Source: Pseudomonas sp. BGr12 (GTDB lineage: Bacteria > Pseudomonadota > Gammaproteobacteria > Pseudomonadales > Pseudomonadaceae). From it: a DNA stretch of 58,456 nucleotides. The translations under genes were made by a program, and so were the position numbers. Every line of letters starts with the position of its first letter. Position 1 is the stretch's first letter. The stretch spans positions 1-58,456 of the forward strand of contig NZ_JALRNF010000040.1 in NCBI RefSeq assembly GCF_030272895.1, given 5' to 3'. Below are positions 30,916 to 45,764 of this stretch, one piece after another. Below the pieces are notes generated by a model. That model ran no database searches. It saw only the letters and a list, made by a program, of their open reading frames with translations, and was not told the DNA's origin.

Positions 30916-31170
30916 TTACATCTTGTCCTTTTTCTCGTCCTTCATCATGTTGTCGCCATTGTCCATTTTCTTGTCGTGGCCCTTGTCCATTTTCTTGTCG
31001 TGGCCCATGTCCATTTTCATGTCGTCGGCCATTTTCTGGTCCATCTTCATGTCCTTCTCCATGCTGGCTTGCTTGTCCATCTTCATGTCTTCGGCATGGG
31101 CAACGGGAAGGATGGCCAGGGTCGAGCCAAAGGACAGGATGAGGGCGGCCGCGCTGAGGGTTTTGTTCAT
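30916..31170 (-). CDS. Exported MxKDx-type pentapeptide repeat protein
   Basis: The 84-residue protein has a signal peptide (1-26, ending AHA). The mature part is composed almost entirely of Met, Lys and Asp in repeats such as MKMDK and KKMDKGHD, as in the penta-MxKDx family. The repeat is rich in Met and His, which could bind copper or another metal, but no function is proven. AGGAG precedes the start. It converges with the LysR gene with 3 bases between the stop codons. Confidence 0.82.
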   Translation of the reverse strand: MNKTLSAAALILSFGSTLAILPVAHAEDMKMDKQASMEKDMKMDQKMADDMKMDMGHDKKMDKGHDKKMDNGDNMMKDEKKDKM

Positions 31171-35186: not shown

Positions 35187-36314
35187 TTACTGAGGGGAAA
35201 CTTCGGTTTTAGGTTTGCCGAAATGCCATTCGTAGACCACGAATTTGAAGTCTTTCAGGTCGCCCTTGTCGTCGTACGACAGGTCGCCGGTCGGGGTCTT
35301 GAAGGTGCCTTTGTGGATGGCATCAGCCACCTTGTCGGTGTCTTCGGACTTGGCGGCCTTGATGCCTTCGGCGATCAGCTCGACAGCGGAGTAGGCCGGG
35401 AACACGAACGGACCGCTCGGATCTTTGCCGTCAGCCTTGATGGCATCGACGATTGCCTTGTTCGCAGGATCGGTATCGAAGGACTTCGGCAGGGTCACCA
35501 GCAGGCCTTCGGAGGCGTTCTGGGCGATCTGCGAGATGGAGTCGTTGCCGACACCTTCAGGGCCCATGAACTTGGCTTTCAGGCCTTTTTCCTGGGCCTG
35601 GCGCAGGATCAGGCCCAGCTCTGGGTGGTAGCCGCCGTAATAGACGAAGTCGACGTTGTTCTGCTTGAGCTTCTGGATGATGGACGAGAAGTCCTTGTCG
35701 CCGGCGTTCAGGCCTTCGAATACGGCAACCTTGGTGCCTTTGCCTTCGAGGGTCTGCTTGACCGCGGTGGCGATGCCTTCACCGTATTGCTGCTTGTCGT
35801 GCAGTACGGCAACCACTTTCGGCTTGACGTGGTCGGCGATGTAGTTGCCGGCCGCCGGGCCCTGGGCGCTGTCCAGGCCGATGGTGCGGAACACCAGCTT
35901 GTAACCGCGAGCGGTGATTTCCGGGCTGGTGGCAGCCGGGGTGATCATGATCACGCCTTCGTCTTCGTAGATGTCCGAAGCGGGCTGGGTGGAGCTGGAG
36001 CAGAGGTGGCCGATCACGAACTTGACGCCATCGTTGACCACTTTGTTGGCTACGGCCACGGCCTGTTTAGGGTCGCACGCGTCGTCGTACTCTTTGGCTT
36101 CAAGCATCTTGCCATCGACGCCGCCCTTGGCGTTGATGTCCTTGATGGCTTGTTTGGCACCAACGAACTGCATGTCGCCGTACTGAGTGACCGGACCGGT
36201 TTTCGGGCCGGCGATGCCGATCTTGATGGTATCGGCTGCAAACGAATGGCTGGCAACCCCGGCCAGAACCATTGCGGCAAACAGCTTGGAAATCTGCTTA
36301 GTAGCCTTACTCAT
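35187..36314 (-). CDS. braC: Leucine/isoleucine/valine/alanine-binding periplasmic protein BraC
   Basis: The 375-residue precursor has a signal peptide cleaved about residue 26 (ASHSFA). The mature protein is a type I LIVBP; KIGIAGPKTGPVTQYGDMQ, shown as KIGIAGPKTG and PVTQYGDMQ, and FVIGHLCSSSTQPASDIYE around the ligand site (CSSST) match the family. It captures branched-chain amino acids for BraDEFG. GTGGAGC precedes the ATG. A separate terminator after it gives higher expression than the membrane genes. Confidence 0.95.
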   Translation of the reverse strand: MSKATKQISKLFAAMVLAGVASHSFAADTIKIGIAGPKTGPVTQYGDMQFVGAKQAIKDINAKGGVDGKMLEAKEYDDACDPKQAVAVANKVVNDGVKFVIGHLCSSSTQPASDIYEDEGVIMITPAATSPEITARGYKLVFRTIGLDSAQGPAAGNYIADHVKPKVVAVLHDKQQYGEGIATAVKQTLEGKGTKVAVFEGLNAGDKDFSSIIQKLKQNNVDFVYYGGYHPELGLILRQAQEKGLKAKFMGPEGVGNDSISQIAQNASEGLLVTLPKSFDTDPANKAIVDAIKADGKDPSGPFVFPAYSAVELIAEGIKAAKSEDTDKVADAIHKGTFKTPTGDLSYDDKGDLKDFKFVVYEWHFGKPKTEVSPQ

Positions 36315-36677
36315 AGTGCTCCACTCATTCTGTTGTAATTTTTATAGTCCTGGCGGCCAGAGCTTGAGGACCGGATCTGGTTCCATGGGAGGCCACGCCT
36401 CGCCATCGGTCCCGGATTGCTCCGAAAATGCCCTGGCAACTGTACCGGTACAGTGTAGAGCGCTGCTTTATCGCTTGAAAAGCAGCCCAGCCTGGGCAAA
36501 TTCGGCGCGTGTCGCTTAATTGACAGAAACTTACAGGAAAGCGGCCTGGTCTTGCCCGGTTGCACGCGGCAATCCTTGGCTTTCAAGTCCTTTTCGATCA
36601 ATTACTTATTTGAAACCGGGTTTTTCTGCAAAAATACCGACCTCTTACAGTAGTCGAATTATTTCTGGCAGGAACCC
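36315..36677. promoter_or_regulatory. Divergent intergenic region with a 16-bp perfect palindrome
   Basis: This 363-base region between braC and the DUF2288 gene holds no gene. ACTGTACCGGTACAGT (36439-36454) is a perfect palindrome, about 125 bases before the braC start. On the minus strand TATAAA (complement of 36341-36346) could be a braC -10. TTGACA on the plus strand (36520-36525) has no matching -10. Confidence 0.5.
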
Positions 36678-36983
36678 ATGACTGATCAAGCAAGCACCCT
36701 CTATGCCAAATTGCTCGGCGAGACGGCAACAATCGAGTGGAAAGCCCTGGAGCGTTTCTGGGCCAAGGGTGACCTGATTTGGGTCGACTCGACCCTGGAT
36801 CTGATCGAAGTTGCACAGGCAATGGCCGAGAATCGCAGTGAAATCGTGGCTGCATGGCGTAATGCTGGCACTGTCAGCCCGACCACCGCAGAGCAGGCAC
36901 TAGACCTCCAGAGCCGCGATCCAGAGATCTGGGCGGTGGTGGTTTCGCCGTTCATCGTGATCCAGGAAAAGAAAAAAGCCTGA
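36678..36983 (+). CDS. DUF2288 family protein
   Basis: The 101-residue protein is a small cytoplasmic alpha-helical protein; LYAKLLGETATIEWKALERF, WVDSTLDLIEVAQAMAENR and PFIVIQEKK match the DUF2288 family of gamma-proteobacteria. Its function is unknown. CAGGAA precedes the ATG. It is monocistronic and divergent from braC. Confidence 0.85.
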   Translation: MTDQASTLYAKLLGETATIEWKALERFWAKGDLIWVDSTLDLIEVAQAMAENRSEIVAAWRNAGTVSPTTAEQALDLQSRDPEIWAVVVSPFIVIQEKKKA

Positions 36984-37099
36984 GCGCGCCCTGAATTGGT
37001 GCGTAAAAACGCACAGGCAGGCGCTTCTGGTGCGCGAGAGTGTTCAGGCAGGGTGGCTGTTGGTAACAGTCGGTGGCAGAGGTAACAGTTCTGAACGTC

Positions 37100-37158
37100 A
37101 TCGCGGGGCAAGCCCGCTCCCACAGATGCCCCCTGTGGGAGCGGGCTTGCCCCGCGAT
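37100..37158. repeat. REP-type inverted repeat
   Basis: A 25-base arm with core GCGGGGCAAGCCCGCTCC (37100-37124) has a perfect inverse copy at 37134-37158. It starts its hairpin 6 bases from the stop codon of the tubulin-like gene. The remaining 37015-37099 holds nothing recognisable; a small GTGCGT/ACGCAC hairpin is at 36999-37014. Confidence 0.9.
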
Positions 37159-37164
37159 TATCAC

Positions 37165-39348
37165 TCAGTAGTCCACTTTCCCGGTGTGACTGTTCAGCGA
37201 GATCACCCGCGTCTTGCCGATACGGTGACGGTAGATTTCCCGCAGGTATTTCACCGCTTTCTTCACGCATTCCCGCGACAGGCGAATGTCGTTGATCGAC
37301 ACGAACTTGCTCTTGTCGTTGATCAACTCGCGGTACTTCTTCTCGTACATCGGTTTGATCGCGTACCAGTTGGTGTCGAGGATTTTCGCCGGGTTCTCGA
37401 ATTCGTTGAGCAGGTCGTCGATGCGATCCTCATCGAACACATCGCTGGTGATGAACTCCAGCACGGCGTTGTCCAGGGTGTCGTCGAAACGGTACGGGTT
37501 GCGGGCGAAGCAGCGCTTGATGAAGGCCACGATCAGGGTCAGGAAGTCATCCGACAGGCACGGGCTCTTGGCGATCAGGGTGGTCAGCGACAAGTTGGCC
37601 GAGGCGCCGATCACCAGGGCGTAGCGCTTGAGCGTGGTGTTGGGGAACAGGCTGTTGAGGTGAGTCTTGAGCCGGTTCAGGTCCATGTAGGACAACTTGT
37701 AGTCCTTGGGCAGGGAGACGATCGACACCACCGACGAGCAATTCTTGAAGAAATGCAGGTCGTGCAAGGCCGCAGCGTCGTAGCCGGACGCCTTGTACTG
37801 CTCCAGGGCCGCCCGATAACGCTTGGACTCGATCGGCAACAGGCTGATGCCCTCGATCGCCTGGGTCACCTTGTTGAAGTGCGGCAGGTCGATGGAGCGG
37901 AAGAACAGGTCATCGATGTCCAGGCGTGGCTGATCCTTCTCGAACACCTTGAACTTGTCCGAACCCGGGATCGGCTGTTCCGGTACCACCGACTCGGCAT
38001 AGGCAATGGCCACGGGACCAGCCAGGCTCATGAACAGGTCGTTGGCATCCAGGCGGATGGTTTCGCCGATGTCGATGCCGGCGCGACGGAAGTAGTTCTG
38101 GTCGTAGTCGGTGGTGACCGCCTGGGCGGTGAGAATGTTGAAGATCTGCTGGGAGATGTACTGGTTGGCGTGCTTCTCCATGGCATTGACATCGATGTTC
38201 TGGATGTTGCCGTCATCGTTCTCTTCGGCGTAGCGCATGATGTCGTTGGAGATCAGCATCATCGCGTTCCAGGGCCGGATGCGGCCCATGACGCTGGCCT
38301 CGCTGCTGTCTTCGTTGTCGAAGTTATAGGAAAAATCCCATTCTTCGGACAGGTACTTGCACAGCAGACGACCGGCGTTGATGTGCAGCGCCTCCGACAT
38401 TTCACTGCGGTGATCGGAAATGTTCGGCAGTACGCAGATACCGCTGGTGAAGATCGGCTCGAAGACGAACGAGTGCCCGCTCTTGCCGTCGTTCTCGTCG
38501 GCCGGCTTGGTGTCGAAGGTCTTGTTCATGTAGGAGTACTGCTGGGCCAGGCCGAACTCCGAAGCCATGCCCGAACCGGTACCACCGCCGGCACTGAAGA
38601 TGTAGAAGTACAACCGTGACTGGTTGGCCTTGATCCCGCAGGAGTCGATCAGGTAGGAGTGGATCAGCTTCCAGTCGGTGCTGGAGAAGCGATGGGTCTC
38701 CTTGTTGAGGATGATCTTGGCCAGGTACTGGCCCAGGATCGGCGCGTTGCCCGCACCGCCGGCATGGACTTCCGACAGGTCCATGATCTTCATCTTGCTG
38801 TAGTCGCGAATGAACCCGCTTTTTTCGCCCTTGCGCGAGAAGCGGATGCGCCCGGCAATGTCCTTGTCCAGGTCACCCAGCATGACCAGCGGTTCGACCA
38901 GGAACACCGGCTTGCTGCCTTTGTTCTGCACCAGGCGCAGGTTATTGCGGATCCAGCGTGCCGGGCTGTAGGACGGCTCGTTGGCGACCCGGTCGTCATT
39001 GTTGAATTCGTTGAGGTAGAAGGTGCGGGCGTTGTATACAAGTTCCGCAACATCCAGGGCAATATTCGAACCGCAGCGACCCAGGCCTATCAGGCAAACG
39101 GAGGGAAACTGCTGGTCCAGGCGCAACTGGCTTTCCTCCTCGACGTGGACACTGGGTGGAAACACCAGGTCGCGCAGGCCGTCGAGGTTGTCGAGGATGC
39201 GCTGGATATCACCCTCGGTGAAGTACAGGTACTGCTGCGGGTTGAGTGCCCGCGGGCTGTAGAATTCCCTCGCCCCTGAGAGGCTCGACGCGGGAGTGGA
39301 TGACGTCAGCTCGGAAACTGCGTTGGCAGAAGTAGTCTTGGAGGTCAT
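37165..39348 (-). CDS. FtsZ/tubulin-superfamily GTPase-like protein of unusual size
   Basis: The 727-residue protein carries the nucleotide-binding loops of FtsZ in the right order: T1-like VCLIGLGRCGSN (84-95), T3-like HAGGAGNAPILGQ (195-207), the tubulin signature FSAGGGTGSG (251-260), T6-like LISNDIMRY (365-373) and T7-like RLDANDLFMS (432-441), where Asp434 and Asp437 match the spacing of the FtsZ Asp pair that triggers GTP hydrolysis in the neighbour subunit. About 80 residues precede this core, and 270 residues of unknown fold follow (460-727), so it is nearly twice FtsZ length. No signal or membrane segment is evident. It is a single gene, far from division genes. It may correspond to the Tubulin_2 family; polymerisation is inference. 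Confidence 0.85.
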   Translation of the reverse strand: MTSKTTSANAVSELTSSTPASSLSGAREFYSPRALNPQQYLYFTEGDIQRILDNLDGLRDLVFPPSVHVEEESQLRLDQQFPSVCLIGLGRCGSNIALDVAELVYNARTFYLNEFNNDDRVANEPSYSPARWIRNNLRLVQNKGSKPVFLVEPLVMLGDLDKDIAGRIRFSRKGEKSGFIRDYSKMKIMDLSEVHAGGAGNAPILGQYLAKIILNKETHRFSSTDWKLIHSYLIDSCGIKANQSRLYFYIFSAGGGTGSGMASEFGLAQQYSYMNKTFDTKPADENDGKSGHSFVFEPIFTSGICVLPNISDHRSEMSEALHINAGRLLCKYLSEEWDFSYNFDNEDSSEASVMGRIRPWNAMMLISNDIMRYAEENDDGNIQNIDVNAMEKHANQYISQQIFNILTAQAVTTDYDQNYFRRAGIDIGETIRLDANDLFMSLAGPVAIAYAESVVPEQPIPGSDKFKVFEKDQPRLDIDDLFFRSIDLPHFNKVTQAIEGISLLPIESKRYRAALEQYKASGYDAAALHDLHFFKNCSSVVSIVSLPKDYKLSYMDLNRLKTHLNSLFPNTTLKRYALVIGASANLSLTTLIAKSPCLSDDFLTLIVAFIKRCFARNPYRFDDTLDNAVLEFITSDVFDEDRIDDLLNEFENPAKILDTNWYAIKPMYEKKYRELINDKSKFVSINDIRLSRECVKKAVKYLREIYRHRIGKTRVISLNSHTGKVDY

Positions 39349-39549
39349 TTTGCGCCATTTGCCTGGGGGTGGATGGCTGTTCTAGTGGATATCATAGGGC
39401 CATCACTGGATAAGTTTCGCGACTGTATCAGTGCGCATCTGGCGTGAGCGATAGGGGGCTACCCTAGTGCCGATCAGGAGTTTTCCTTGTCACGCCTGCC
39501 AACTGAATCGTCCAATCAATCAACTTCTTTAATCTGCCTGGAGCTGTTC

Positions 39550-40437
39550 ATGAGCACTGCACGTCCTTCGCTGGGGTTTGCCGGAATCGGTTTGATGGGG
39601 TTGCCGATGTGTCGGCGGTTGCTGGCGGCGGGGTACCCGCTGACCGTCTGGAACCGTTCGCCGGACAAATGTTCGGAACTGGTCAAGGCCGGTGCCCACC
39701 AGGTGGCGACGCCGGCCGAGCTCTGTCAGTCCGCTGATGTGGTGATGCTGTGCCTGGCCGACACCGCCGTGGTGCGTGAGGTGGTGTTCGGTGCCGACGG
39801 TGTGGCCAAGGGCGCCAGGGCCGGGCAGTTGCTGGTGGACTTCTCCAGCCTGGAGCCGACCGCCACCCGGGAAATGGCGGCGGAACTGGCGGCGCTCAGC
39901 GGCATGGCCTGGCTCGATGCGCCGGTGTCAGGCGGCACGCCGGGTGCCGAATCCGGCAGCCTGGCGATCATGGTCGGTGGCGATGCGGCCGACCTTGAGC
40001 GGGTGCGACCGGTGTTGTCGACCCTGGGCCAGCGGGTAACCCACATGGGGCCGGTGGGCGCAGGGCAGGTGACCAAGGCCTGCAACCAGATGATCGTTGC
40101 CTGCAATGCCCTGGTGATTGCCGAAGTGGTGGCGCTGGCCGAACAGTCCGGCGTCGATGCCAGCCTGATCGCCGAAGCCCTGGCCGGTGGTTTTGCCGAT
40201 TCGAAACCCTTGCAGATCCTTGCACCGCAAATGGCCGAGAGCCGCTTCGAACCGGTCAAGTGGCATGTGCGGACCTTGCTCAAGGACCTGGACACGGCGG
40301 TGAAGTTTTCCCGCGAGCAGGGATCGGCGACGCCCCTCAGCGGCCTGGCCGCACAGCTGATGCGCCTGCACGGTAGTCAGGGCTATCTGCAAAAAGATCC
40401 GGCAACCTTGATTGATCTGTACCGGCGTAAGGAGTGA
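39550..40437 (+). CDS. 3-hydroxyisobutyrate-dehydrogenase-family NAD(P)-dependent oxidoreductase
   Basis: The 295-residue enzyme has the N-terminal Rossmann motif GFAGIGLMGLPM (9-20), the substrate signature DAPVSGGTPGAESGSLAI (123-140) and the catalytic Lys176 in GAGQVTKACNQM. This is the beta-hydroxyacid dehydrogenase family (3-hydroxyisobutyrate, tartronate semialdehyde or succinic semialdehyde substrates). The start at 39550 has GGAG six bases before; a longer frame to 39487 adds non-homologous residues. Its last 101 bases overlap the convergent signalling gene. Substrate not determined. Confidence 0.88.
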   Translation: MSTARPSLGFAGIGLMGLPMCRRLLAAGYPLTVWNRSPDKCSELVKAGAHQVATPAELCQSADVVMLCLADTAVVREVVFGADGVAKGARAGQLLVDFSSLEPTATREMAAELAALSGMAWLDAPVSGGTPGAESGSLAIMVGGDAADLERVRPVLSTLGQRVTHMGPVGAGQVTKACNQMIVACNALVIAEVVALAEQSGVDASLIAEALAGGFADSKPLQILAPQMAESRFEPVKWHVRTLLKDLDTAVKFSREQGSATPLSGLAAQLMRLHGSQGYLQKDPATLIDLYRRKE

Positions 40438-42610
40438 AGTCGGTCACCAGCGGCTCGCGCTGCTCCAGATCCTTGAGCAACGGGCGCAGCTCTCCCAGGG
40501 GCAGGGGGCGGCTGAGCAGGTAGCCCTGGACAAAATCGCAGCCTTGCTGGGCAAGGAACTGGTACTGGTCCATGGTTTCCACCCCTTCGGTGATCACCTG
40601 CAGGTGCAGGGTATGGGCCATGATGATGATTGCCTGGACGATTTCCATGTCCTGGGGGCTGCGGGGCACATCCTGGATGAACGAGCGATCGATCTTCAGG
40701 GTGTCCAGGGGCAGGCGCTTGAGGTAGGCCAGCGACGAGTAGCCGGTGCCGAAGTCATCGATCGACAGCGAGACGCCCTGGGCACGAATGTCCTTGAGCA
40801 GGGCGATGGTGCTGTGGATATTGCCCATCAGGGCGTTTTCGGTGACCTCCAGTTCGAGTTGCTGGGGGCTCAGGCCCGCCTGGTGCAAGGCGTCCTCAAC
40901 TTCCCTGGCCAGTTCCTCGCGGCCCAGGGTCAGCGCCGAACAATTGACCGTGACCCTGAGCCCACCATGGCCATGGCGGCTGAGCAGGGCGAGATCCTGG
41001 CAGGCGTGGCGCAGCACCCAGAGGTCGAGGTCGGTGATCAGGCCATTGGCTTCGGCGATGCCGATGAAGCGCTCCGGACTGAGCAGGCCGTGTTGCGGGT
41101 GGTCCCAGCGCACCAATGCCTCGAGCTTGGCCACCTGGCCGGTATGCAGGTCGAAGATCGGCTGGTAGTGAATCCGTAGGCCGCGCTCTTCGAGCAGAGC
41201 GATGCGCAGCTCTTCTTCAAGCTGCAGTTCGAGGGTGGCGCGGGTATTCAAGGTGTTGTTGAAGAAGTTCAGGCTGTTGCGCCCGCAGCCCTTGGATTGA
41301 TACAGCGCCAGGTCGGCGTTCTTGAGCAGCTCTTCACAGCTGCGCCCGTCATCGGGAAAGATACTGATGCCAATGCTGGTGGTCATGACCATGCGCCGGC
41401 CGGCCAGGTCGATCGGCTCTTTCATCTTCTGCATGATGCGCTGGGCCAGGTGCCGGGCTTCTTCGCGGTTGTGCAGGGCGGTCAGGATGCAGAACTCGTC
41501 GCCGCCGAAGCGCGCCACCACGTCCTGGCTGCGGGTCGCGGCCTTGATATAGCCGGCGATGACCTTGAGCAGTTCGTCGCCGGCATCATGGCCGAGGCTA
41601 TCGTTGATGCGTTTGAAATGATCGATATCGAGGAACATGACCGCCAGCATGCCTTCGTTGGTCGATTGCTCCACCAGGCGTTCGGCAAACACCTGGTTGA
41701 AGCCGCGGCGATTGATCAGGTTGGTCAGGGCATCGTAGTGCGCGGCCTGCTGCAGGGACACTCGGGCCTGGTCCAGTTGGCTGAGCAGTACATTGACCCG
41801 GCGCAGGTCGTGTTCCTTGCTTTGCAGTTTCTGGTCGGAGAGGGCGGCACTGATGCTGCTGGCGCTGATCAGCAAGGTGATGAAGGCGATGGTCAGGCTC
41901 AGTTGCAGGCTGTTGTCGGTGGTGGGCAGGGTGACGCTTGCGCCGGAAGGGATGACCAGGGTCATGGCCCACATGCCGGTGAAATGGGTGGCGAAGATGC
42001 CGCCGGCCAGCAACAGGCTGGCGCCGTACTTGAGCAACTGGTGGAGGGTGCCGCTGCCATAGCGAAAATAGCGTGCCAGCAGCAGGGCCATGAGACTGGT
42101 GCTGATGGCGACGGCGATGGACGCCAGGAACCTGTCCGGTCGATAGAACTGCTGGGCGTTCGATTGAATGGCCGTCATACCGATGTAATGCATGGCGACG
42201 ATGCCAAGGCCGATGCAGGTGGCGGCCTGGAGGAAGTGGCGTGCTTGCAGCTCGCGGTTGCCAAGGGTGTTCATCGCCAGCCAGCCGGCGAGCAGCATGA
42301 TGATCAGCGACACCCCGGTCAGGGTGAATTCGTAGTGCACCTCGATCGGCGCCTGGAACGCCAGCATGCAAATGAAGTGCAGGGCCCAGACACCCCCGGC
42401 CAGGCAACAGGCGCCCAGCAGGCGCCATTGGCGCTGGGCAGCCGGGTGGTCAACATGGTTCAGGCGTTCGGCCATGCTCAGGGTGGCGAAACTGCCGGCA
42501 CCGGCCACCAGCAGGGCAAGCACCACCAGGTAGGGGTTGTATTTGCACTCAAGAATGATCTGGCCGGTGGACGGCAAGTCGGCGAGCATTTCCAGGCCCA
42601 GCCACTCCAT
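40337..42610 (-). CDS. MHYT-GGDEF-EAL cyclic-di-GMP protein
   Basis: The 757-residue membrane protein starts with an MHYT sensor of seven helices; motif His residues are at 78 (LHFICM), 141 (MHYIGM) and 209 (THFTGM). MHYT is thought to bind a metal and sense gases. The diguanylate cyclase domain has an intact GGDEF (369-373) and an I-site RSQD (360-363). The phosphodiesterase domain has EAL (497-499) plus DDFGTGYSSL and ITEGVE. Both active sites look intact, so it could make or break cyclic di-GMP. The final 33 codons overlap the convergent gene. AAGAGG precedes the start. Confidence 0.92.
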   Translation of the reverse strand: MEWLGLEMLADLPSTGQIILECKYNPYLVVLALLVAGAGSFATLSMAERLNHVDHPAAQRQWRLLGACCLAGGVWALHFICMLAFQAPIEVHYEFTLTGVSLIIMLLAGWLAMNTLGNRELQARHFLQAATCIGLGIVAMHYIGMTAIQSNAQQFYRPDRFLASIAVAISTSLMALLLARYFRYGSGTLHQLLKYGASLLLAGGIFATHFTGMWAMTLVIPSGASVTLPTTDNSLQLSLTIAFITLLISASSISAALSDQKLQSKEHDLRRVNVLLSQLDQARVSLQQAAHYDALTNLINRRGFNQVFAERLVEQSTNEGMLAVMFLDIDHFKRINDSLGHDAGDELLKVIAGYIKAATRSQDVVARFGGDEFCILTALHNREEARHLAQRIMQKMKEPIDLAGRRMVMTTSIGISIFPDDGRSCEELLKNADLALYQSKGCGRNSLNFFNNTLNTRATLELQLEEELRIALLEERGLRIHYQPIFDLHTGQVAKLEALVRWDHPQHGLLSPERFIGIAEANGLITDLDLWVLRHACQDLALLSRHGHGGLRVTVNCSALTLGREELAREVEDALHQAGLSPQQLELEVTENALMGNIHSTIALLKDIRAQGVSLSIDDFGTGYSSLAYLKRLPLDTLKIDRSFIQDVPRSPQDMEIVQAIIIMAHTLHLQVITEGVETMDQYQFLAQQGCDFVQGYLLSRPLPLGELRPLLKDLEQREPLVTDFTPYAGTDQSRLPDLFADSPDYRAGASAVRPGR

Positions 42611-42917: not shown

Positions 42918-45764
42918 TTAACCGGCGACCAGTACCCGGATCGCTTCCAGGCGCAAGGCGGCTTTTTCCAGCATCGCCAGGCCTTGTTCGCGCTGCTTGC
43001 GCAGGGCTTCGATCTCGCTGTCGCGAACGGTCGGGTTGACCGCTTGCAAGGCGGTCAGGCGCGCCAGTTCTTCGTCGGTCTCGGCGGCCAGGCGGCTTTG
43101 GGCCTGGGCTACCCGTTCGGCATGACGGGGCATGACCTTGGCTTCACCACTGTTGATCCGTGGCGTCAGCACGTCGCGCTGGGCCTGGATGAACTTGTTG
43201 GCGCTGGCCTTGGGCACGCTTTCGAGCTGGTCGTTGAGGGTCTCGAAGGACACCCGTGCGGCCAGGTCGTTGCCATTGACGTCGAGCAGGCAGCGCAGCG
43301 CAGCCGGTGGCAGGTAGCGACCCAGTTGCAGGGAGCGCGGGGCCACGACTTCGCTGACATACAGCAACTCGAGCAGCACGGTACCCGGCTTGAGCGCCTT
43401 GTTCTTGATCAGCGCCACCGCGGTGTTGCCCATGGAGCCGGACAACACCAGGTCCATGCCGCCCTGGACCATCGGGTGCTCCCAGGTGATGAACTGCATG
43501 TCTTCACGAGACAGCGCCTGGGTGCGGTCGTAGGTGATGGTGACGCCTTCGTCGTCGCCCAGCGGGAAGCTGGCGTCGAGCATTTTTTCGCTCGGCTTGA
43601 GGATCAGGGCGTTTTCCGAATGGTCTTCGCTGTCGATGCCGAAGGCGTCGAACAGGGTTTCCATGTAGATCGGCAGGGTGAACTGGTCATCCTGTTCGAG
43701 GATCGCCTCGACCAGTTCCTGGCCTTCACCGGCGCCGCCGGAGTTGAGTTCGAGCAGGCGGTCGCGGCCGCTGTGCAGCTCGGCTTCCAGGCGCTCGCGC
43801 TCGGCGCGGGCCTCGTCGACCAGGGTCTGCCACTCGCCGTCGTCACCGCTTTCGAGCAGCGGCAGCAGGCGCGGGCCGAACTGGTGCTGCAGGGCGTTGC
43901 CGGTCGGGCAGGTGGCCAGGAAGGCGTTCAGGGCCTGGTCGTACCACTGGAACAGGCGCTCTTGCGGGCTGTTCTGCAGGTACGGCACATGCAACTCGAT
44001 GGTGTGCTTCTGGCCAATCCGGTCCAGACGGCCGATCCGCTGCTCGAGCAGGTCGGGGTGGGCCGGCAGGTCGAACAGCACCAGGTGATGGGAGAACTGG
44101 AAGTTGCGGCCTTCGCTGCCGATCTCCGAGCAGATCAGCACCTGGGCGCCGAATTCTTCGTCGGCGAAGTAGGCGGCGGCACGGTCGCGCTCGAGGATGC
44201 TCATGCCTTCATGGAACACCGTGGCCGGGATACCGGAGCGCACCCGCAGGGCGTCTTCCAGGTCCATGGCGGTTTCGGCATGGGCGCAGATCACCAGGAC
44301 CTTGACCCGCTTGAGCATCTTCAGGGTGTCGATCAGCCAGTCGACCCGCGGGTCGAAGCGCCACCAGCGTTCTTCTTCCGCGGTATCGCCCTGGGACTGG
44401 AAGGCCACCTCGGGGTACAGCTCGGCATGCTCGCCCAGCGGCAGCTCCATGTACTGATCGGGGTTGGCCAGCGGATAAGGGTGCAGCTTGCGTTCCGGGA
44501 AACCCTGCACGGCGGCACGGGTGTTGCGAAACAGCACGCGGCCAGTACCGTGACGGTCGAGCAGCTCGCGAATCAGGCGCGCACTGGCCTGGGTGTCGCC
44601 ATCGCTGATGGCCGCCAGCAGGGCTTCGCCTTCAGCGCCGAGGAAGCCTTCGATGGTGGCGTGGGCCTTGGCCGACAGGCGACCTTCGTCAAGCAGCTCC
44701 TGTACCGCTTCGGCCACCGGGCGATAGTTTTCGCTCTCGGCGCGGAACGCGGCCAGGTCGTGGAAACGGTTCGGATCGAGCAGGCGCAGGCGGGCGAAGT
44801 GGCTGTCCTGGCCCAATTGCTCCGGGGTGGCGGTCAGCAGCAGCACGCCGGGGATGACCTGGGCCAGTTGCTCGACCAGGGCGTACTCGGGGCTGACCTG
44901 GTCTTCATGCCAGACCAGGTGGTGCGCCTCGTCGACTACCAACAGGTCCCAGCCGGCGGCGAACAGCGCGTCCTGGGCCTTTTCGTCTTCGGTCAGCCAT
45001 TCCAGGGCGACCAGGGCCAGTTGGGCATCCTCGAAGGGGTTGCTGGCATCGCTCTCGATGAAACGTTCGGCATCGAACAGGGCGACCTGCAGGTTGAAGC
45101 GCCGGCGCATTTCCACCAGCCACTGGTGCTGCAGGTTTTCCGGGACCAGGATCAGCACGCGGCTGGCGCGACCGGAGAGCAGCTGGCGGTGGATCACCAG
45201 GCCCGCCTCGATGGTCTTGCCCAGGCCTACCTCGTCGGCCAGCAGTACCCGTGGCGCGATACGGTCGGCGACTTCACGGGCAATGTGCAACTGGTGGGCG
45301 ATTGGTTGGGCGCGGGTGCCGCCCAGGCCCCAGAGCGAGGACTGCAGCTGGCGGCTGGTGTGTTCCAGGGTGTTGTAGCGCAGCGAGAACCACGGCAGCG
45401 GGTCGATCTGGCCGGCGAACAGACGGTCGCTGGCCAGGCGGAACTGGATGAAGTTCGACAGCTGGGTTTCCGGCAGGGTGCAGGCCTGGTTCTGGCCGTC
45501 GAGGCCGTGATAGACCAGCAGGCCGTCGACATCGTCGACCTCGCGCACGGTCAGCTTCCAGCCCTCGAAATGGGTGATCTGGTCGCCAGGGGAGAAGCGC
45601 ACCCGGGTGAGCGGCGCATTGCGCAGGGAGTACTGGCGGGTGTCGCCAGTGGCCGGGTAGAGCACGGTCAACAAGCGGCCATCCTGTGCCAGAATGGTCC
45701 CCAGACCCAGCTCGGCTTCGCTGTCGCTGATCCAGCGTTGCCCCGGTTGATACTGCTGCGCCAT
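42918..45764 (-). CDS. rapA: RNA polymerase-associated ATPase RapA (HepA)
   Basis: RapA is a Swi2/Snf2-type ATPase that binds RNA polymerase and recycles it after transcription. The 948 residues (E. coli 968) start with the Tudor-like domain (1-100, [18 protein letters not shown]). Walker A lies in [14 protein letters not shown] (about 175-188) and DEAH in [10 protein letters not shown]. The helicase C-terminal part has [12 protein letters not shown], a typical Snf2 motif VI. The gene stands alone and ends at a REP doublet. Confidence 0.95.

Follow-up and report, generated by a model that had tools for sequence, protein, structure and literature searches.

What does a bacterium with an ordinary FtsZ do with a second, longer protein that carries the nucleotide loops of the FtsZ/tubulin superfamily? 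In this superfamily, GTP is held in a pocket formed by loops T1 to T6, and hydrolysis is set off by the acidic T7 residues of the adjoining subunit, which makes the resulting filaments dynamic. The question is raised by one gene in the window analyzed here, a stretch of 58,456 nucleotides from a contig of Pseudomonas sp. BGr12. An initial annotation had placed a chromosomal gene for an FtsZ/tubulin-like protein of 727 residues at 37165 to 39348 and had called the protein probably undescribed. Our ORF check of the window returned exactly these boundaries and this length, with an ATG start on the minus strand (the annotation had named no strand), and the chromosomal setting is right. The family, however, has a name: the gene fits FtsZl2 of Makarova and Koonin. 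On balance, and with slightly better than even confidence, we favor the view that FtsZl2 is a stand-alone GTP-dependent filament-forming protein that works in addition to FtsZ and outside division. We add to the published description wider sampling, conservation close to that of FtsZ, a fixed Pseudomonas locus, and GGDEF-EAL neighbors in two lineages.

Family identity, nucleotide loops, and fold

The type member of FtsZl2 is PFL_1302 of P. fluorescens Pf-5 (Makarova & Koonin, Biol Direct 2010, PMC2875224), which rules out an undescribed family. That survey collects families by a search for GGGTG(S/T)G and describes this one as having loops T1, T4, T6, and T7 and helix H7, a C-terminal region of ∼300 residues without known relatives, and no coiled-coil domain; it is placed in Proteobacteria only, typically alongside an ordinary FtsZ, and no gene associations are given for it. 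By HHpred, its authors matched the type member to PF00091 (E 0.0033) and recognized T1, T4, T6, T7, and H7; they describe T6-H7 of FtsZl1 as not confidently identifiable and state in a reply to a reviewer that FtsZl2 is “confidently predicted to form filaments.” The window protein has the GGGTG(S/T)G form of T4 and 289 residues after its T7-like motif, for which no Pfam family reaches its cut-off. Its T1, T6, and T7 strings are present and invariant in 133 sequences, with T6-T7 lacking support from FtsZ profiles. A 90% identical copy occupies the same locus in P. protegens FD6. Judged by the published description of PFL_1302, the window gene fits an FtsZl2 ortholog, and no feature that we tested contradicts this.

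Searches of an open-access library yielded, judged by titles and abstracts, no experimental or functional study of FtsZl2 since 2010; within that library, PMC2875224 alone uses the name FtsZl2 or the tag PFL_1302. A further lead, PFLU_1301, is nlpD in the source excerpt that names it and is unrelated to FtsZl2. Both the family and the prediction of filaments were already published in 2010.

The initial annotation had also listed five loop motifs in FtsZ order and an intact T7-like Asp pair. All five motifs are found, in the order claimed, and the features of the gene are as follows.

37165..39348, minus strand: FtsZl2 gene, 727 aa (ORF, weak Tubulin and Tubulin_2 matches, 133-sequence alignment, published family)
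39064..39087, minus strand: T1-like loop GLGRCGSN, residues 88 to 95; G88, G90, C92, G93, S94, and N95 invariant in 133 sequences
38731..38760, minus strand: T3-like loop GGAGNAPILG, residues 197 to 206; invariant except A199 in the 33-row alignment; aligns weakly to FtsZ GAGANP
38569..38589, minus strand: T4 loop GGGTGSG, residues 254 to 260; invariant in 133 sequences; local Pfam Tubulin match at 247 to 264
38230..38250, minus strand: T6-like SNDIMRY, residues 367 to 373; invariant in 133 sequences; presumed equivalent of FtsZ T6
38035..38052, minus strand: T7-like LDANDL, residues 433 to 438, with Asp434 and Asp437; invariant in 133 sequences; presumed equivalent of FtsZ T7
37168..38034, minus strand: C-terminal region, residues 439 to 727, without a recognized family in Pfam; highly conserved in 133 sequences

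The 133 sequences comprise that of the window, 80 from named related loci, and 52 from further genomes. Broken copies (L116, L117, and L198) were excluded from the alignments, as were from this one the redundant rows L114 (the main copy of genome G370) and L119 and L120 (two copies near both ends of one contig of G359). The 132 homologs share 55 to 97% identity with the window's FtsZl2, the most distant (55 to 56%) being those of genus g32. Invariant positions number 271 of 727 and include every position of GGGTGSG, SNDIMRY, and LDANDL; the T7-like pair D434/D437, which the initial annotation had called intact, never varies. The same motif invariance holds in a diverse alignment of 33 rows whose identity falls as low as 55%. 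By these alignments, conservation of the motifs is more than chance. A candidate start of helix H7, picked by eye, is N395 in “ANQYISQQ.”

Profile searches point in the same direction at low scores. Pfam Tubulin matched residues 247 to 264 (E 0.0024, 18.6 bits against a cut-off of 33), and Tubulin_2 (PF13809) matched residues 198 to 371 (E 0.0056, 16.4 bits against a cut-off of 27), rising to 20.0 bits with the excised core (residues 79 to 434). The earlier assignment to a Tubulin_2-type family is therefore not clearly borne out. Sub-cut-off matches to both families recur in all 33 diverse members (best E 2.1e-4 for Tubulin and 1.7e-3 for Tubulin_2), yet such E-values are no proof of fold, because the unrelated family DUF6562 matches 9 of the same 33 and reaches E 7.5e-4; Noc2 matches 4 of them (best E 0.0044). 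The window protein had no match up to E 10 in PADLOC, NCBIfam, PHROGs, or PDB sequences, and a profile of the FtsZl2 family recovered no superfamily member from the PDB, its sole match being ribosomal L23 (E 0.79 to 1.5).

Aligned by hhalign to 18 FtsZ sequences, the 33-row alignment places GAGNAP on GAGANP (T3) and GGGTGSG on GGGTGTG (T4) in a common register, though weakly (P 0.0023 or 0.018 and probability 12.7% or 2.6%, depending on direction). Without realignment, and with rows of at least half gaps dropped, only 17 to 19 columns around T4 were aligned (P 0.015 to 0.017). The T6-T7 part gave P 0.3 with its best match in another register, so FtsZ-like T6-T7 is not demonstrated. The C-terminal region likewise matched best in another register (P 0.4), and residues 435 to 727 drew two sub-threshold Pfam matches. 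An FtsZ-type C-terminal domain proposed by eye at residues ∼480 to 600 found no support: residues 440 to 620 against FtsZ 205 to 320 gave P 0.4, and Pfam has no family for residues 425 to 640.

AlphaFold2 models from one alignment (46 rows, pLDDT 31.6) and from another covering residues 79 to 460 (68 rows, pLDDT 32.5) were of too low confidence to show a nucleotide pocket; their inputs were 46 and 68 of 81 rows, all of 87 to 98% identity, with more diverse rows left out. Because both models are unusable, the fold rests on motifs and profiles, our own and those published, from which we infer a tubulin/FtsZ fold for the window protein.

Such a fold could also serve a protein that never polymerizes. 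As a GTP-regulated switch or scaffold, FtsZl2 would keep the FtsZ/tubulin pocket in a monomer, dimer, or small complex, with the C-terminal 290 residues as effector. That region, with many invariant stretches and no recognized family, fits a fixed partner interface; moreover, two residues before the T7 Asp, where FtsZ has Asn, the window's FtsZl2 has R432, and the absence of FtsZ profile support for the T6-T7 equivalence suits this explanation as well. It leaves the complete invariance of the T7-like Asp pair without the role that the pair has in FtsZ, where it serves the neighboring subunit. It would also set FtsZl2 apart from all characterized members of the superfamily, which form filaments according to the survey (PMC2875224). 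We consider a switch or scaffold possible but less likely than a filament. That both motif sets, and much of the C-terminal region, are so strictly conserved fits a self-assembling protein.

The Pseudomonas locus and its GGDEF-EAL neighbors

The initial annotation had described a single gene far from division genes, and none of the neighbors that we scanned is a division gene. Three of them are as follows.

36678..36983, plus strand: DUF2288 gene, the other edge of the conserved locus (Pfam)
39487..40437, plus strand: 3-hydroxyisobutyrate-dehydrogenase-like gene, divergent, between FtsZl2 and the MHYT gene (Pfam); not in all species
40337..42610, minus strand: MHYT-GGDEF-EAL gene (NbdA-like), upstream beyond the dehydrogenase gene (Pfam MHYT, GGDEF, and EAL)

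The 80 named loci, titled Pseudomonas in 79 cases and Paucimonas in that of one MAG, are the closest 80 of at least 570 and so a biased set. DUF2288 and livK are found downstream at 75 of them; at the remaining five, <1.5 kb of sequence is available on that side. For the MHYT-GGDEF-EAL protein, 75 of the 80 have a match no more than 3.5 kb upstream, on the strand of FtsZl2; between it and the FtsZl2 match are <400 bp in 20 of those 75 and at least 400 bp in 55. The dehydrogenase-like gene is directly upstream on the opposite strand in 57 of the 80. From domain order and synteny, we take the window's MHYT-GGDEF-EAL gene to be the ortholog of nbdA. PMC9355167 refers to PA3311 (nbdA) of P. aeruginosa as a phosphodiesterase, and the work that it cites there describes it in its title as coupled to MHYT. 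Elsewhere in the window, an 84-aa ORF (30916 to 31170, minus strand) has Met/Asp/Lys-rich repeats after a signal-peptide-like start and, by eye, could bind metal.

For the counts that follow, 58 loci were sorted into ten context groups, mostly single genera; the g38 and g469 groups span three genera each, within one family each, and g14b is a second copy in a g14 genome. Genus g14 is taken to be that of the named Pseudomonas loci. Counts for the 58 include the broken copy L198; those of GGDEF+EAL neighbors, strands, and gaps use mechanical ORF calls of at least 90 aa. The next gene is >50 bp away in 107 of 114 cases, and only one same-strand neighbor lies within 50 bp, so FtsZl2 is probably transcribed alone; a promoter and terminator scan of 36900 to 39600 found neither. 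A general partner gene, sought in 25 and then in 58 loci, was not found: no neighbor is common to all groups, and, FtsZl2 itself aside, six neighbor clusters each occur in two of the ten groups and none in more.

Counted by domain, GGDEF+EAL genes fill 14 of 114 immediate neighbor slots compared with 3 of 693 more distant nearby genes. All 14 are on the strand of FtsZl2, compared with 60 of 114 neighbors overall. In genus g44, 8 of 12 loci have, next to FtsZl2 and on its strand, a gene for an ammonium transporter fused to PAS-GGDEF-EAL (downstream in five, upstream in three); the fusion was identified by Pfam in L151 and by similarity at the other g44 loci. Across these eight (L151, L153 to L155, and L159 to L162), from different g44 species, the flanking genes stay the same while the fusion gene lies to one side of FtsZl2 or the other. 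In g14, the MHYT gene is downstream of FtsZl2 in L121 and L123. At L121 (5989 to 13325), an mdoH/opgH-like gene (by eye), FtsZl2, and the MHYT-GGDEF-EAL gene follow one another on the same strand; in E. coli, OpgH inhibits FtsZ.

These neighbors, the sole clue to a role of FtsZl2 in the genomes compared, supply the first concrete hypothesis for it, namely, that its filament is the partner of a membrane GGDEF-EAL protein, with assembly set by local c-di-GMP or by the MHYT or ammonium-transporter sensor domain. In favor of this are the enrichment and strand agreement just given, the recurrence in two lineages with different sensor domains and both gene orders in each, and the upstream MHYT gene at 75 of the 80 named loci. 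Adjacency is nevertheless confined to 2 of 10 context groups (2 of 20 group slots), for which the binomial P of 0.003 is uncorrected for a gene family chosen after seeing the data; given this and the eight groups without an adjacent GGDEF+EAL gene, we count it as a lead. No GGDEF+EAL gene occurs in the sequence covered for the g38 group (8 loci), g137 (10), the g469 group (10), g32 (2), g624 (1), or the second G370 copy; likewise, 5 of the 12 g14 and 4 of the 12 g44 loci have none, and one lies 4.6 kb away in g19 and 2.2 kb away in g181. Gaps of 59 to 261 bp are not tight operon spacing, and the distance is at least 400 bp in 55 of 75 named loci. Furthermore, NbdA is known from P. aeruginosa (PMC9355167), yet all 24 other genomes of genus g1, apparently the P. 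aeruginosa group, are without FtsZl2. We therefore regard a c-di-GMP effector filament as improbable. Less probable again is the full version, in which many Pseudomonas and relatives build a second tubulin-type filament, unconnected with division, and GGDEF-EAL proteins anchored in the membrane and linked to MHYT or an ammonium transporter control its assembly; if true, this would make the FtsZl2 filament a cytoskeletal effector of the second messenger c-di-GMP.

Distribution and conservation relative to FtsZ

The range of FtsZl2 was sampled by genome search inside the window's phylum, with the window genome counted where it is part of a set. Matches occur in 136 of 398 genomes of its family (3 of 19 genera; two of the 136 are fragments), 20 of 341 of its order (6 of 131 genera, its own included), 2 of 369 of its class, and 9 of 398 of the phylum, its own included and all within the class or nearer. 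Genus g14 has matches in 99 of 149 genomes (one partial, one split), family f20 in 9 of 111, f16 in 11 of 100, and f242 in 11 of 12 (one copy broken). Partial copies occur in G187, G303, G1423, G1677, and G1685, those of the last two possibly reflecting a contig end or sequencing error. E. coli genomes gave no near match to 36300 to 40500. About a third of g14 genomes lack the gene, and its absence from many related species shows that it is not essential to the group.

Genus g1, under which the window genome is filed, has FtsZl2 in 1 of 25 genomes, its own. The rapA DNA of the window (42918 to 45764) is 91% identical to that of g14 genome G328 and only 83% identical to that of G017, listed as the same species; the genus given for the assembly seems to be mistaken. 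Another g14 genome, G370, has a second, diverged FtsZl2 copy (L113, 2825 to 5011; ∼75% to the window's) off the usual locus, with MsrP/MsrQ-like genes and a large TssM/IcmF-like gene beside it by eye.

A tree of 63 rows joins those of f242 to g44, a genus of another order, and nests G758 within g14; these two cross-order placements suggest horizontal transfer. Rows L112, L113, L165, and L203 are on long branches and unsure in placement, and the grouping of L112 with g32 may be false.

The FtsZ of the window genome is encoded on another contig and is the sole PF00091 match in that genome by profile search; each of ten FtsZl2-bearing genomes examined has exactly one. For nine of these, all other than the window genome, identities to the window genome's FtsZl2 and FtsZ, respectively, are 67 and 83% in G048, 80 and 90% in G082, 69 and 63% in G1531, 74 and 74% in G690, 69 and 62% in G1541, 56 and 65% in G410, 73 and 67% in G758, 72 and 70% in G539, and 70 and 61% in G422. 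With ranges of 56 to 80% for FtsZl2 and 61 to 90% for FtsZ, these nine comparisons put the conservation of FtsZl2 at about that of FtsZ. Horizontal transfer may contribute in G1531, G1541, G758, and G422, where FtsZl2 is clearly the closer of the two.

Patchiness across genera and the two cross-order placements could also suit a mobile or defense gene or a relic of a plasmid-partition TubZ; we give this almost no credence, given the lack of matches in PADLOC, PHROGs, plasmids, phages, and viral contigs, the same locus in named Pseudomonas, and a third-position GC of 0.856, near or just above that of five neighbors (0.773 to 0.852).

Proposed working and comparison with known systems

Returning to the stand-alone filament that we favor, FtsZl2 would be a cytoplasmic, GTP-binding protein whose subunits assemble head to tail like those of FtsZ and tubulin. 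GTP would be bound by loops T1, T3, T4, and T6 of one subunit, with the GTPase site completed by the T7 Asp pair of the adjoining one, which would couple hydrolysis to polymer turnover. In Pseudomonas and genus g44, this work may perhaps be tied to the neighboring membrane-anchored c-di-GMP enzymes. Cytoplasmic location, GTP binding and hydrolysis, filaments, and the c-di-GMP link are all predicted from sequence here. Coexistence with FtsZ, scanned neighbors that include no division gene, and absence from many species all speak against a role in division. The initial annotation had judged filament formation plausible; we agree, and PMC2875224 makes the same prediction. What it observed is confirmed, and its interpretation is partly supported. 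Should FtsZl2 polymerize, tractable bacteria would have a chromosomal cytoskeleton of the tubulin type that does not serve division; the candidate is of interest for being about as conserved as FtsZ in nine comparisons and present in many Pseudomonas species.

TubZ and PhuZ, members of the same superfamily, are plasmid or phage genes, whereas the plasmid, phage, and viral sequences searched held no homolog of the window gene. FtsZl1/Tubulin_2 (PF13809) resembles the window protein through the match at residues 198 to 371, which is below the cut-off. Neighbors of FtsZl1 are typically vWA, OmpA, or kinase genes in PMC2875224, in contrast to the four scanned here (DUF2288, dehydrogenase, MHYT-GGDEF-EAL, and RapA). 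FtsZ (PF00091) shares the T4 signature, weakly the T3 register, and a DxxD at the T7-like site; it differs in profile (the window protein scores 18.6 bits against a cut-off of 33), in length (396 aa versus 727 aa), in its C-terminal domain, undetected by Pfam in the window protein, and in being a separate gene in the same genome. The closest likeness is to the FtsZl2 family itself, with which the window gene shares T1/T4/T6/T7-type loops, an orphan C terminus of ∼300 residues, coexistence with FtsZ, little gene context, and Pseudomonas as the type genus.
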